A DNA stretch of 64,000 bases from Jiella marina (GTDB lineage Bacteria; Pseudomonadota; Alphaproteobacteria; Rhizobiales; Rhizobiaceae): the NCBI RefSeq assembly GCF_024359545.1, contig NZ_JAKQZG010000001.1, positions 372,001-436,000 of the forward strand, given 5' to 3'. How positions within the stretch are numbered: position 1 is the first letter of the stretch; each line of letters begins with the position of its first letter. The notes beneath the pieces are model-generated. The model searched no databases and was not told where the DNA came from. It saw nothing but the letters and a program-made list of their open reading frames with translations. The translations under genes were made by a program, and so were the position numbers. Shown here one piece after another: positions 10,199 through 60,190 of this stretch.

Positions 10199-11989
10199 TC
10201 AGACGAGAACGCGATCCTTTTCATCGATCGCCCGCGCAACAGCTTCGTCGGTCGCTTCCTCCGGAAGAAGGATCTCGTTATGGGCCTTGCCGGACGGGAT
10301 CATCGGGAAGCAGTTCGCCAGATTGGCAACGCGGCAGTCGAAGAGAACGGGACTGTCGACGGCCAGCATCTCCTCGATCGCATCATCCAGGTCACGCGGC
10401 TTTTCGCACCGGATACCCACCGCCCCATAGGCTTCCGCCAGCTTGACGAAATCGGGCAGCGCCTCGGTGTAGGAGTGCGACAGGCGGTTGCCGTGCAAGA
10501 GCTGCTGCCACTGACGCACCATGCCCATGTACTGATTGTTGAGAATGAAGATCTTGACGTTCGCATTGTGCTGAACCGCCGTCGACATCTCCTGCATGTT
10601 CATCAGAACCGACGCATCGCCCGCAATGCAGAGCGAGATGGCATCGGGATGGGCGATCGCCGCGCCGATCGACGCCGGCAGGCCATAGCCCATCGTGCCG
10701 AGGCCACCGGAGGTCAGCCAGCGGTTCGGTGCCTCGAACCCGTAGAACTGGGCGGCCCACATCTGGTGCTGGCCGACTTCGGTCGAGACGTAGGTCTCCT
10801 GGCCCTTCGTCGCCTCATACAGCCGCTGCACGGCGTATTGCGGCATGATGACGTCGTCATTCGGCTTGTAGGCCAGGCAGTTGCGGGCGCGCCAGACGTT
10901 GATTTCATGCCACCAGGCCGCTAGAGCCTCCCGGTCGGGTTCGGGCTGCGCCGCTTTCCATTCGTCGATCAGGTCTTTCAGGGCGTGACCCACGTCGCCG
11001 ATGATCGGCAGGTCGACCCGCACGTTCTTGTTGATCGAAGAGGGATCGATATCGATATGGATCTTCTTCGAGCCGGGCGAGAAGGCATCGAGCCGGCCGG
11101 TGATGCGGTCGTCGAACCGGGCACCGATACACAGCATGACGTCGCAGCCATGCATGGCAAGATTGGCCTCGTAGGTCCCGTGCATGCCGAGCATGCCCAT
11201 CCAGCTCTTGCCGGAAGCGGGATAGGCGCCGAGCCCCATCAGTGTCGAGGTGATCGGAAAACCGGTCATCTCGACGATTTCGCGCAACAGCCGCGTGGCC
11301 TCGGGACCGGAATTGATGACGCCGCCACCCGAATAGATGACCGGACGCTTGGCCCCCGCCAGCATCGCGACGGCCGCGGCAATCCGCTCGCGCTCCGGCG
11401 AAAGACGTGGGCGATAGCTCTCATGGGTGCGGGTCGGCGGTGGCGGGCTGTATGTCCCGGTCGCGAACTGGACATCCTTCGGAATGTCGACCACGACCGG
11501 ACCGGGCCGTCCGGTCCGGGCGACCAGAAACGCCTCATGGAGAATCCGCGGCAGATCGGCCACGTCCTTCACCAGCCAGTTGTGCTTCGTGCAGGGCCGG
11601 GTGATGCCGACCGTATCGCACTCCTGAAAGGCGTCGGAGCCGATCAGCGTCGTCGGAACCTGTCCCGAGATGCAGACGAGCGGGATCGAATCCATCAACG
11701 CGTCCTGAAGCGCCGTGACGGCATTGGTCGCTCCCGGCCCGGAGGTCACCAGCATCACGCCGGTCTTGCCGGTTGACCGAGCGTAGCCCTCGGCTGCATG
11801 ACCGGCCCCCTGCTCGTGGCGGACGAGAATGTGGCGCACGGCGGTCTGCTGGAAGATTTCGTCGTAGATCGGAAGGACCGCGCCGCCCGGATAGCCGAAG
11901 ATATCGGCAACACCATTGTCGATCAGAGCCTGGACGACCATCTGGGCGCCCGTCATTTCGCGATTTTCGGTGGGTGTGTTCATATCCAT
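10199..11989 (-). CDS. ilvB: Acetolactate synthase large (catalytic) subunit
   Basis: 596 residues, normal length. ThDP-dependent enzyme condensing two pyruvates to acetolactate (valine/leucine) or pyruvate with 2-oxobutyrate (isoleucine). The catalytic glutamate region is LVRHEQGAGHAAEGYAR; the FAD/central domain and the ThDP/Mg motif (GDASVLMNMQEMSTAVQ...ILNNQYMGMVRQWQ) are intact. The ATG follows a gagagaag ribosome-binding site. The gene is preceded by a leader peptide and rho-independent attenuator, so transcription should fall when branched-chain aminoacyl-tRNAs are plentiful. The name ilvI is often used for the same gene in related genomes. Confidence 0.95.
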   Translation of the reverse strand: MDMNTPTENREMTGAQMVVQALIDNGVADIFGYPGGAVLPIYDEIFQQTAVRHILVRHEQGAGHAAEGYARSTGKTGVMLVTSGPGATNAVTALQDALMDSIPLVCISGQVPTTLIGSDAFQECDTVGITRPCTKHNWLVKDVADLPRILHEAFLVARTGRPGPVVVDIPKDVQFATGTYSPPPPTRTHESYRPRLSPERERIAAAVAMLAGAKRPVIYSGGGVINSGPEATRLLREIVEMTGFPITSTLMGLGAYPASGKSWMGMLGMHGTYEANLAMHGCDVMLCIGARFDDRITGRLDAFSPGSKKIHIDIDPSSINKNVRVDLPIIGDVGHALKDLIDEWKAAQPEPDREALAAWWHEINVWRARNCLAYKPNDDVIMPQYAVQRLYEATKGQETYVSTEVGQHQMWAAQFYGFEAPNRWLTSGGLGTMGYGLPASIGAAIAHPDAISLCIAGDASVLMNMQEMSTAVQHNANVKIFILNNQYMGMVRQWQQLLHGNRLSHSYTEALPDFVKLAEAYGAVGIRCEKPRDLDDAIEEMLAVDSPVLFDCRVANLANCFPMIPSGKAHNEILLPEEATDEAVARAIDEKDRVLV

Positions 11990-12053
11990 GATCTACTTCT
12001 CTCGTCGGCGCCGCATTTGCCCTCACGGGCCATGTCGTCTCGGGATGTTCAGG

Positions 12054-12079
12054 CAATAAAAAAGGGCCCCTCGGGCCCT
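12054..12079 (-). terminator. Rho-independent attenuator of ilvBH
   Basis: On the minus strand AGGGCCC, a 3-base loop and GGGCCCT are followed by a run of six T's. It lies between the leader peptide and ilvB, 64 bases before the ilvB start, where an attenuator is expected rather than an end-of-gene terminator. Confidence 0.85.
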
Positions 12080-12114
12080 GTCGTCGCGCACACGTGGCAT
12101 CAGCCGGACGGTCC

Positions 12115-12168
12115 TTAGACCGCCTCGCGTGTGCGCCATCCTACGAGAATGTTCATCTTCTTCATCAT
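12115..12168 (-). CDS. ilvBH leader peptide
   Basis: A 17-codon open frame, MMKKMNILVGWRTREAV, ends 35 bases before the attenuator stem. It carries consecutive Ile-Leu-Val codons and a terminal Val, the control codons expected for branched-chain regulation. Its 3' part (GCGCACACG) is complementary to CGTGTGCGC just before the terminator stem, giving alternative pairings. Transcriptional attenuation of ilvBN is established in the alphaproteobacterium Caulobacter; here it is inferred from layout. Confidence 0.8.
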   Translation of the reverse strand: MMKKMNILVGWRTREAV

Positions 12169-30125: not shown

Positions 30126-30154
<29 letters not shown>

Positions 30155-31838
30155 AGAGCGTCTCCACGGTGATCTCGGCAAGACCCCGTTCGGCGGCGTA
30201 TTTCTCGGTGTTTCGGCGCGCCTTGCCGCGGACGAAGAAGGGGATCTTCCTCAACTCCGCCTCGGCATCGACGCCCCAGCCGACTCCGGCCGGAGCTTCG
30301 CAATCCGCAACCTGGATCCCCTCCGCCGGTTCGGGCGCGGTGCGGGCGCCGGAGCCCAGATGGGAGGGTACGGCCTCGTCGTTGAACTCGAAATCCTCGC
30401 GGAACATGCCGAGAAGGTGTTCCTCGAGCCCCATCACCAGAGGGTGGACCCAGCTGTCCCAGAGGACATTGGCGCCCTCGAAGCCCATTTGCGGCGAATA
30501 GCGGGCAGGATAGTCCTGGACATGCACTGGAGCGGAGATGACGGCGCAACCGATGCCCAGCCGCTTGGCGATGTGCCGCTCCATTTGCGTACCAAGCACG
30601 AGTTCCGGCTGGGCCTCCGCGATCGCCGCCTCGACCTCCAGATAGTCGTCGGAAATCAGCGGCTCGACGCCGTATTCCTTCGCTGCGGTCCGGACATCAC
30701 GCGCGAGCTCGCGGGTGTAGGTGCCGAGGCCGCAGAGCGTGAAGCCGAACTCCTCGGTCGCGACGCGTGCGGCGGCGAGCGCATGGGTAGCGTCACCGAA
30801 GACGAAGACGCGCTTGCCGGTCAGATAGTTGGAATCGACCGAGCGGGAGAACCAGGGCAGGTTCGACTGGGGCTTTTCCGGTGCGAACTCCGGCGCCGCG
30901 ATCCCGGCCAGCCGGCAGACTTCGGCAACAAACTCCCGCGTCGCGCCCACTCCGATCGGAACGACCGTCGTGAACTCCTGGCCGAATTGGCGCTTCAGCC
31001 ATTTGGCGGCGACGCCGGCGATCTCGGGATAGAGCACGACGTTGAAATCGGCCTCGCCGAGCCGTGCCAGATCGCCCGGCGTCGCGCCCAGCGGCGCAAC
31101 CACCGCCACGTCGACCCCGATCTCGCCCAGAAGCTTGCGGATCTCGGCGACGTCGTCGCGATGGCGGAAGCCCAGTGCCGTCGGCCCGAGGATGTTGCAG
31201 CGGGGCCGCCTACGCGTCTGAGACTGAGAGGCTTGCGCCAAGGCACCCCCCTCTGTCGCCTCCGGCGACATCTCCCCCGCAAGGGGGGAGAATGGAGTGC
31301 CCGGCGTTTCAAAGAGGCCATTCTCCCCCCTTGTGGGGGAGATGCCGGCAGGCAGAGGGGAGTGCGCAGCGTCAGAGTTCTGCGATTGGCTAACCTGCCC
31401 ACCCGCCATCGCCCGCACGAGCTGATAGAAGGTCTCGGCCGCGCCCCAGTTCTCCTTGCGCTGATAGGAAGGAAGCTCCAGCGGCACGACGGGCACCGGC
31501 AGATTGGCGGCCTGGGCGAGCCCGCCCGGATCGTCCTGAATCAGCTCCGCCGTGCACGACGAACCCACCAGCACCGCCTGCGGTAGGAAGCGCTCATAGG
31601 CCGCGATCAGCGTGCTCTGAAACAGCTCGGCCGTGTCTTTGCCGAGGTCGCGGGCCTCGAAGGTCGTGTAGGTCACCGGCGGGCGCTTGTCGCGCCGCTC
31701 GATCATGGTGAAAAGCAGATCCGCATAGGTGTCGCCCTGGGGCGCATGCAGAACGTAGTGCACGCCCTCCATCGCGGTGGCGATCCGCATGGCGCCGACA
31801 TGAGGCGGCCCTTCATAGGTCCAGACGGTCAGTTGCAT
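30126..31838 (-). CDS. bchB: Dark-operative protochlorophyllide reductase subunit B, with an in-frame repeat-derived insertion
   Basis: 570 residues, against about 525 in Rhodobacter. With BchN it forms the catalytic heterotetramer. The [4Fe-4S] ligand Asp36 is present ([10 protein letters not shown]), as are the SSCTAEL loop, [20 protein letters not shown], and the C-terminal PCP-reductase domain ([17 protein letters not shown]). Between VRAMAGG and RRPRCNIL lie about 60 extra residues (149-208) such as [13 protein letters not shown] and [16 protein letters not shown], encoded by two inverted palindromic repeats. The frame is kept, so the enzyme is probably functional with a long surface loop. 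ATG 31838 lies 14 bases after the bchN stop. Confidence 0.94.
31242..31365. repeat. Inverted pair of GC-rich palindromic repeats inside bchB
   Basis: Two copies of one element face each other: 31242-31295 and 31319-31365. Each has CATTCTCCCCCCTTG(T/C)GGGGGAGATG, a variable centre and CAGAGGGG(G)GTGC. Together they can fold into one very large hairpin. A 40-base core of the second copy (31321-31360) is identical to a copy in the prophage near 59995. Confidence 0.85.
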
Positions 31839-53931: not shown

Positions 53932-54582
53932 CTACGAGGACAAGGCCTCGAAGGCGACCGGCATCAGCATCGCCGTCGCCACATTGTTGCGCCGCACCAG
54001 CTCCGCCCCGCGTCGCGGGTCGCCGTAGAGGTCCCAGGCGAGCACGCTGGCGGGCAGCGACAGATTCGTCTCGACCCGCACCACCGGGCTGAGATCGGCC
54101 GCCAGCGCCGAGACCTGCCGGATCGCCTCGCCGACGAGCCCGGAAATCCATTCAAGCACGTCCGCCCCGAACGCCGCCGCGATCGCCCCGTAATCCGCAT
54201 CCGCCCGGGCCCCGAGTGCCGTGCGCGCCGCGACCGCGTCCGGGCGGCTTTCAAACTCCACCCGCACCACCGCCGCCGCCCAGATCACCAGCCGCCCCAG
54301 CGCCACCACGACATCCGCCCCCGCACTGCCCCCCTCACCCTGAGACGCTTCCCCAGCCCCCTCACCCTGAGCCTGTCGAAGGGTCGAGGGCTCCAGCACG
54401 CGCAACACCGAAATCAGCCCCGCCGCATCGTCCGCCGCCTCCCCCAGCTCCCGGCACACCGTCAGATAGGCCGCAGCCCCCTCCGCCCCGCCGGCGGAGA
54501 TCGCCAGCGCCCGCTTGCGGATCGCCACCAGATCTTCCGGGTCGGTGACATGCACCCCGATGAGTTCGAACAGCCAGTCCAT
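53932..54582 (-). CDS. DNA circularisation protein, C-terminal part (separated by an amber codon)
   Basis: 216 residues from an ATG two codons after the TAG that ends the N-terminal part; both lie in the same frame. The sequence (LSLPASVLAWDLYGDPRRGAELVRRNNVA) is the C-terminal domain of Mu gp43-type tail/DNA circulation proteins. A REP-like repeat is translated inside it (STLRQAQGEG). It may be expressed from its own ATG, by read-through, or not at all. Confidence 0.75.
   Translation of the reverse strand: MDWLFELIGVHVTDPEDLVAIRKRALAISAGGAEGAAAYLTVCRELGEAADDAAGLISVLRVLEPSTLRQAQGEGAGEASQGEGGSAGADVVVALGRLVIWAAAVVRVEFESRPDAVAARTALGARADADYGAIAAAFGADVLEWISGLVGEAIRQVSALAADLSPVVRVETNLSLPASVLAWDLYGDPRRGAELVRRNNVATAMLMPVAFEALSS
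54363..54402. repeat. REP-like repeat B, copy 1 (within a coding region)
   Basis: CACCCTGAGCCTGTCGAAGG followed by a short spacer and CGAGGGCTCCAGCA. Shares both parts with the copy at 58344-58393 and the core with 60962-60980. Confidence 0.8.
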
Positions 54583-59915: not shown

Positions 59916-60190
59916 CAGGCCGCTCCCTTGCGTTTGCCCGTGTTACTTTTGCCGCTACCGCCAGAATCTTGAGAGCCGTCTTCCCCGCTTCCTTTCTCCC
60001 CCCTTGTGGGGGAGATGCCGGCAGGCAGAGGGGGGTCTTCACCCGCCACCTCCTCGATCGACCCTTCCCTCAGCAGCCGCCGCGTGAACGCCTCGCCATC
60101 GTCCATCATCTCGCCGGACGCCTTGAACAGCCGCCCGCGAAACGGCACCCGCTCGTCAGGATCGACGAGCCTGTAGCGCTTCATCGCCAT
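59915..60190 (-). CDS. DUF2635-like protein (Mu gp38) with repeat-derived tail
   Basis: 91 residues. YRLVDPDERVPFRGRLFKASGEMMDDGEAFTRRLLREGSI resembles DUF2635. The C-terminal half ([15 protein letters not shown]...) is encoded by a palindromic repeat identical to that in bchB, in the same reading frame. Stop overlaps the sheath start. Confidence 0.7.
   Translation of the reverse strand: MAMKRYRLVDPDERVPFRGRLFKASGEMMDDGEAFTRRLLREGSIEEVAGEDPPLPAGISPTRGEKGSGEDGSQDSGGSGKSNTGKRKGAA
59993..60036. repeat. Palindromic repeat A, prophage copy
   Basis: Forty bases beginning TTCTCCCCCCTTGTGGGGGA are identical to positions 31321-31360 inside bchB. Lies within the DUF2635-like gene and is translated. 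Confidence 0.9.

Follow-up and report, generated by a model that had tools for sequence, protein, structure and literature searches.

The window, i.e., the whole stretch of 64,000 nucleotides that was analysed, comes from Jiella marina, a species of a free-living genus, and contains a bchB gene with a palindromic repeat doublet inside its reading frame (Table 1). The product has the nitrogenase-type domain and the C-terminal PCP_red domain that identify subunit B of DPOR (Pfam matches to PF00148 at residues 12–467 and to PF08369 at residues 521–565), and solved BchB/ChlB chains are the closest by sequence to the 570-residue protein.

Table 1. Features of bchB and of its repeat family, with positions in the window.
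Feature	Position	Strand	Basis or remark
bchB (light-independent protochlorophyllide reductase subunit B)	30126..31838	-	570 aa, intact; open frame, Pfam domains, closest solved chains BchB/ChlB
BchB expanded linker with insertion, residues 146-211	31206..31403	-	Ten-Jiella alignment; short non-Jiella linkers; model
REP-like doublet (119 bp) of inverted palindromic units	31245..31363	.	Family pattern ACCCCCCTCTG[stem]CATCTCCCCCNCAAGGGGGGAGA - spacer - inverted copy
Unit 1, arm read second in the coding direction, inner stem TGTCGCCTCCGGCGACA	31245..31290	+	Encodes 15 residues on the minus strand
Spacer, 32 nt, short-spacing class (53 nt between hairpin starts)	31291..31322	.	
Unit 2, arm read first in the coding direction, inner stem GCCTGCCGGC	31323..31363	-	Encodes 13 residues
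Lone unit of the bchB repeat family	59990..60036	.	Flanked by minus-strand reading frames with coding-like codon bias

Each arm of the element contains two stems: a looped hairpin, CTCCCCC/GGGGGAG, and an inner stem that varies. The ends of the family units are ACCCCCC or GGGGGGT, one end of the bchB copy being GGGGAGT. The inverted arms (31266–31295 and 31318–31347, 30 nt each) are 93% complementary, and the core CTCCCCCNCAAGGGGGGAG occurs three times in the 64-kb window, twice in bchB and once at 59996–60014, compared to 0.09 copies expected from shuffles. This bears out the two inverted palindromic copies described in the initial annotation, which was also right in that the frame stays open across the repeat, with the translation quoted there, and in that Asp36 is kept (D36 was invariant across 37 sequences). 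Concerning the extent of the insertion, which had been placed at 31215–31394, the repeat proper occupies the 119 bp of 31245–31363 and the remainder is ordinary variable linker. The figure of 60 inserted residues was too high, the net growth being about 47–49 residues, as estimated from a linker of 91 residues vs mostly 44 outside Jiella and 42 in J. flava. The predicted RNA fold of 180 nt reached −108 kcal/mol vs −71.3 ± 4.3 kcal/mol for shuffles (z −8.6), and the large hairpin formerly proposed for the paired repeats stands as a fold prediction only. The spacer of the bchB doublet resembles by eye those of other short-class copies in the same genome.

The BchB proteins of ten Jiella genomes were compared: G000, which is that of the window, G001 (J. 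avicenniae), G003 (J. flava), G004 (J. mangrovi), G002 and G005 to G009. The repeat is present in the bchB linker of five of them (G000, G001, G002, G004 and G007), in the same linker, the same orientation and the same arm frames, and no repeat was found there in G003, G005, G006 and G009 in the alignment of the ten. The bchB gene of G008 has an 11-nt match (CCACCCCCCTC) and no full copy; this match may be a remnant or could be due to chance. From ENWG to ILGP, the linker measures 91 residues in G000 and 42 in J. flava. Outside the genus, the distance from EN to GP was 36–51 residues, most often 44, in the 75 loci that could be measured among 77, these being the best 80 of 582 confirmed BchB loci less three of Jiella. 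Within this sample, the compared sequences show the insertion as restricted to Jiella. Thus, the alignment of relatives proposed at the outset places the loop in more species than J. marina, and a loop widely conserved with non-repeat sequence is not what the relatives display. Long BchB spans of Bradyrhizobium and Rhodoferax loci turned out on follow-up to belong to proteins of normal length. Repeats can confuse assemblies, and most of the genomes are many-contig drafts, but the insert is in frame in five separate assemblies, with different spacers and flanks, which makes an assembly error, also contemplated in the initial annotation, or an annotation artefact extremely improbable.

In an AlphaFold model of BchB (37 sequences), residues 155–206, between a helix (129–153) and a strand (213–217), had pLDDT values below 50. 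The loop is likely to be disordered, and it may extend from the surface, the point that the initial annotation wanted a model to check. The low pLDDT of the loop says little in this respect, because the model is weak overall (mean pLDDT 72, pTM 0.60, TM-score to solved BchB chains of 0.47–0.48 by query length) and other stretches also gave values below 50 (319–339, the conserved stretch 436–486, and 489–515).

The element belongs to a dispersed family. A search of G000 with the element gave 86 alignments at E values up to 0.001, corresponding to some 32 places as counted by eye. The family was then counted in the ten Jiella genomes with a 23-base pattern, allowing up to two mismatches, and the forward/reverse matches were 27/26 in G000, 53/53 in G001, 66/66 in G002, 0/0 in G003, 50/47 in G004, 15/16 in G005, 14/15 in G006, 63/66 in G007, 38/33 in G008 and 23/27 in G009, while the reversed control pattern gave 0 matches in all ten. 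The pattern was also found in 38 of 61 genomes drawn from the GTDB family, two of them Jiella, and similar DNA occurs in 133 plasmid records, mostly of Sinorhizobium and Rhizobium, with a coverage of the element of at least 80% in two of them. Inverted pairs at set spacing numbered 56 of type I and 32 of type II in the loci fetched from three genomes; the type I pairs fall mainly into two groups, with 53 and with about 110 nt between hairpin starts (48–165 overall), and for type II this distance is mostly 96–97 nt. So, the family has many dispersed copies of a short palindromic unit, often paired in inverted orientation at set spacing, as REP and BIME elements do. J. flava has neither this family nor the second palindromic family described below, as judged by pattern, yet it is not the first branch in rooted trees, and a loss of whole repeat families is possible in this species.

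A spread driven by RAYT was rejected as the general driver: PF01797 (Y1 transposase) was found in only two of the ten Jiella genomes, with two matches in G000 and one containing a stop in G004, and is absent from G001, G002 and G007, the three genomes with most copies. Rfam gave no family at gathering score over the bchB element, and the 19 matches below that score, to models of microRNA hairpins in nearly all cases, are due only to the length of the hairpin. Family consensus strings were also searched in the literature, and among the matches listed all look unrelated.

Concerning the coding properties of the element, 103 of 112 arms are open in five or six of the six frames, and for type I elements as a whole the number of open frames is 3.2 of six, compared to 1.7 after shuffling. 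The length is divisible by three in only 14 of the 56 type I elements, and the bchB copies are 2 mod 3, so that in bchB the flanking bases must make up the frame. Neither a target duplication nor an exact insertion junction could be fixed.

As in REP and BIME elements, most copies lie outside genes. A screen by frame and codon position flagged 7 of 84 clusters and, at looser thresholds, 6 of 33. Two loci (L149 and L216) were dropped because the codon pattern changes across the element, which left 11 of 117 clusters inside coding frames (6/84 plus 5/33). This is a minimum, since the filter missed loci L205 and L148, and also a biased rate, as the G001 and G002 loci were mostly picked as type I pairs and six loci came from BchB search matches; the locus sets of G000 and G001 are near a full census and that of G002 is not. 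Besides bchB, the in-frame hosts are cobN (G000, G001, and G002 with several copies at L205), ATP-dependent DNA ligase (G000 and G001), addA (G000), uvrD/pcrA (G002) and, in G001, glyS, an E2 acyltransferase and two ABC proteins. In-frame inserts are thus found in other conserved protein genes, which agrees with the parallel to the Rickettsia palindromic elements (RPE) drawn when the insert was first noticed.

The distribution of the family in these hosts differs among species. Units are found in the cobN loci of eight of the ten Jiella genomes (not in G003 and G005), and a cobN of another genus (G011) has one unit in the corresponding linker, as judged by peptide. The ligase gene, compared in the nine genomes other than G003, contains the family in G000, G001, G002, G004, G005 and G007, and has a short linker in G006, G008 and G009. 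In addA, the family is present in G000 only, of the ten genomes, and in uvrD it is present in G002, G004 and G008, while G001 and G007 retain short remnants and G006 has the start of an element followed by a broken frame. The bchB, cobN, addA and uvrD linkers of J. flava are without repeat, as read by eye. In G006, whose assembly is 84% complete in three contigs, the frames of cobN (L255), uvrD (L293) and the ligase (L278) look broken, possibly because of read errors. In G001, the linker between the lipoyl and E3-binding domains of the E2 acyltransferase (L231) contains three first-family units, and this locus has two matches to a third family. In another G001 locus (L236), a repeat doublet lies between the permease and ATPase domains of a peptide transporter within a single open frame, and this could be either a fusion or two genes that no stop codon separates.

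The same host genes can also harbor other repeats. The uvrD linker of G000, G005 and G009 contains an unrelated palindromic family with the core CCTTCGACAGGCTCAGG, and the cobN gene of G000 also contains a third inverted repeat (TCATCCCGGCCTTGAGCCGGGAT). The matches to the second family are 22/23 in G000, 5/5 in G005, 9/13 in G009 and 19/11 in G008, with 0–2 in the other six genomes. The occurrence of different repeat families in one uvrD linker argues that it is the protein site, and not the element, that decides where inserts survive. G008 has many second-family copies, yet it is the first family that is found in its uvrD, which counts against the interpretation proposed below. In the window, second-family cores occur at 54366, 58347 and 60963.

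It seems reasonable to interpret, with a probability of roughly 0.8, that the bchB insert is a REP-like doublet, comparable to RPE, placed in frame and tolerated in a permissive linker. The dispersed family, the short linkers outside Jiella, the intact protein and the in-frame copies in other enzymes all support the original claim of a foreign, repeat-derived insert. A palindromic doublet of a family widespread in relatives of Rhizobium would have entered the variable BchB linker, at a site predicted to follow a helix and to precede the next strand of the nitrogenase-like fold. The insert would be tolerated due to the permissive character of the linker, to arms with few stop codons in any frame, and to a net length that keeps the frame. 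The loop peptide most likely does nothing, and BchB is expected to be active, with the loop neutral. One observation that does not favor this interpretation is that G008, with 38/33 family copies in its genome, has no full copy in bchB. On the other hand, the carriers of the bchB insert had 27, 50, 53, 63 and 66 forward pattern matches vs 0, 14, 15, 23 and 38 in the non-carriers (exact one-sided Mann-Whitney p 0.008, the species not being independent).

The conservation of the inserted element is very uneven. Among the bchB genes of G001, G002, G004 and G007, the arms are 98–100% identical, the spacers 50–69% and the 5′ flanks 44–57%. None of the 18–19 fourfold sites of the arms differed in any pair, compared to a fraction of 0.32–0.36 in the rest of bchB. 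In the rest of the gene, 103 of 246 fourfold sites are invariant across the four species; assuming independent sites, 18 invariant sites in the arms would have a probability of about 1.6e-7. The arms, cut at 41 and 43 nt, vary among the four species solely at the hairpin-loop base, and the residues varying inside the BchB arms (T/S/A and V/E/A) follow that base. The 3′ flanks are 46–53% identical, except for the pair G001–G007 (L018 and L016), where identity is 95% and begins at the second arm, the two genomes differing at 32% of the fourfold sites elsewhere in bchB. This suggests, from the alignment, a recombination or exchange of which one end fell within the repeat arm.

That the arms are nearly identical goes beyond what would be expected from neutrality alone and could reflect selection for the hairpin, which counts against the preferred reading. 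The hairpin might be kept for a role in the bch transcript, as an mRNA stabilizer, a pause or an attenuator between bchN and bchH, the peptide being a by-product; the very stable fold (z −8.6), the unchanged fourfold sites of the arms when 32–36% differ in the rest of the gene, and the restriction of arm variation to the hairpin-loop base would agree with such a role. This seems, however, unlikely. In alignments of nine locus pairs at shared positions, the arms mostly align, the inner stem and the loop base swap, and the spacers are largely unalignable. The exceptions were pair F (a cobN locus), with partly similar spacers, pair B (a ligase locus), with one degraded G004 arm, and pairs A, D and I, with one or both arms poorly lined up or with extra copies between. 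As intergenic copies at shared positions mostly keep their arms and diverge in their spacers, the pattern of arm conservation belongs to the family and not to bchB. In addition, five of the ten Jiella genomes lack a full bchB copy, the same family occurs in unrelated genes, and in all ten the 40 kb around bchB is free of any other hairpin copy (up to three mismatches). It would rather be recombination or turnover with other copies, and not a role specific of bch, that keeps the arms alike.

Even less probable, to the point of being very hard to sustain, is that the loop works at the protein level, for instance as an interaction surface of the BchN-BchB complex. Two peptide motifs of the loop (a 12-residue motif and SPLxGEM...EGG) are common to the five Jiella species that carry it, but they follow from the DNA repeat and recur in unrelated enzymes. 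Moreover, the variable arm residues follow the hairpin-loop base, and five species do without the loop.

The identity of the hairpin-loop base was compared between units inside genes and the genome pools of G000, G001 and G002. In G002, 37 of 46 units from the fetched loci carry T at this base, as do 11 of 12 units located in four genes, compared to 7 of 43 in-gene units of other genomes (Fisher p 3e-6, with units within a gene not being independent and with G002 cobN and uvrD in both counts). The G000 bases agree loosely (5 G and 3 A in genes; 37 G, 14 A and 2 T in the pool), those of G001 do not fit (3 T, 2 A and 1 G in genes; 50 G, 28 A and 23 T in the pool), and G004 has T in uvrD vs A in its other three genes. 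It can be speculated, with considerable doubt, that the homogenizing family rewrites coding sequence, such that the arm residue (E/V/A or T/S/A) of BchB, CobN, ligase and UvrD would be set by the repeat pool of each genome and not by gene descent. The in-gene loop bases could have been converted by the pool, or could belong to fresh copies of it, or neither could apply beyond G002.

Concerning the origin of the bchB copies, the elements of G001, G002, G004 and G007 are 173, 170, 167 and 194 nt long, respectively, i.e., they differ by multiples of three. These four copies may have one origin, to judge from their shared linker, orientation and arm frames. The G000 element (119 nt) has the same arm frames as the other carriers and another spacing class, and may or may not have that same origin. 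Spacer similarity was given up as a proof of one ancestral insertion, since same-class spacers look alike across loci by eye. In a tree of 13 syntenic genes without bchB, the carriers do not form one clade, so that several losses or gains are needed. With rooting, G000 comes out as the first branch, with a margin of 29 log-likelihood units for the bch genes and of 4 to 6 for cobN. The number of events is not fixed, because the placement of G003 is weak and G008 takes different positions in the bch and cobN trees.

REPs inserted in frame have been described before in other, free-living bacteria. A survey of GTAG/CGTC elements (BMC Genomics 2013; PMC3733652) reports REPs wholly inside open reading frames in several bacteria, many of them in genes of DNA synthesis or repair, including those for UvrD/Rep helicase, RecBCD proteins and DNA ligase, and also in tRNA synthetase genes. 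Like the Jiella family, these REPs occur inside genes as singles and dimers and add residues, and the two have part of their host genes in common. The survey also describes different REPs at about the same recB site in two Xanthomonas species, which recalls the Jiella uvrD linker (PMC3733652). Its section 15 does not name bchB and cobN among the intragenic REP hosts. Unlike in the GTAG/CGTC elements, no GTAG or CGTC end tag was seen by eye in the Jiella copies, the units ending in ACCCCCC and GAGA, and no tie to a tyrosine transposase was found. The likeness to RPE, summarized together with other translated repeats in PMC10969869 and PMC2229807, lies in that these are palindromic elements of about 105–150 bp, in frame in unrelated conserved protein genes. 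The differences are that the Jiella host is a free-living rhizobial relative and that most Jiella copies lie outside genes, the two families being likened by description. As a lead only, the Jiella family may be the same as the Rhizobium-specific intergenic mosaic elements (RIME), with which the host range fits, also by description. RIME, reported in 1995 and cited in PMC2573895, are likewise palindromic repeats of rhizobial genomes.

No report of this repeat in bchB, or in frame in Rhizobiales, was found in the literature searched. The Jiella family fits the known kind of in-frame repeat, to which it adds other hosts and a comparison across the genus. Translated selfish repeats, best known from Rickettsia parasites, are thereby extended to a genus of rhizobial relatives. 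As Jiella species differ in copy number, with J. flava having none by the patterns used, occupied, partly deleted and empty linkers can be compared in the same enzymes. Some 50 residues appear to have been added to the BchB, CobN and UvrD linkers without loss of the gene, and this shows how genes can tolerate repeat DNA.

Another observation in the window concerns the minus strand at 12048–12163, where there is an Rfam match to Atu_C8 (71.5 bits). A short frame MMKKMNILVGWRTREAV can be seen by eye in this region, and after it come a GGGCCC hairpin that resembles a terminator and a T run. The region lies upstream of the frame 10202–11992, which resembles acetolactate synthase. The Atu_C8 match may thus be the leader of a branched-chain attenuator and not a trans sRNA.
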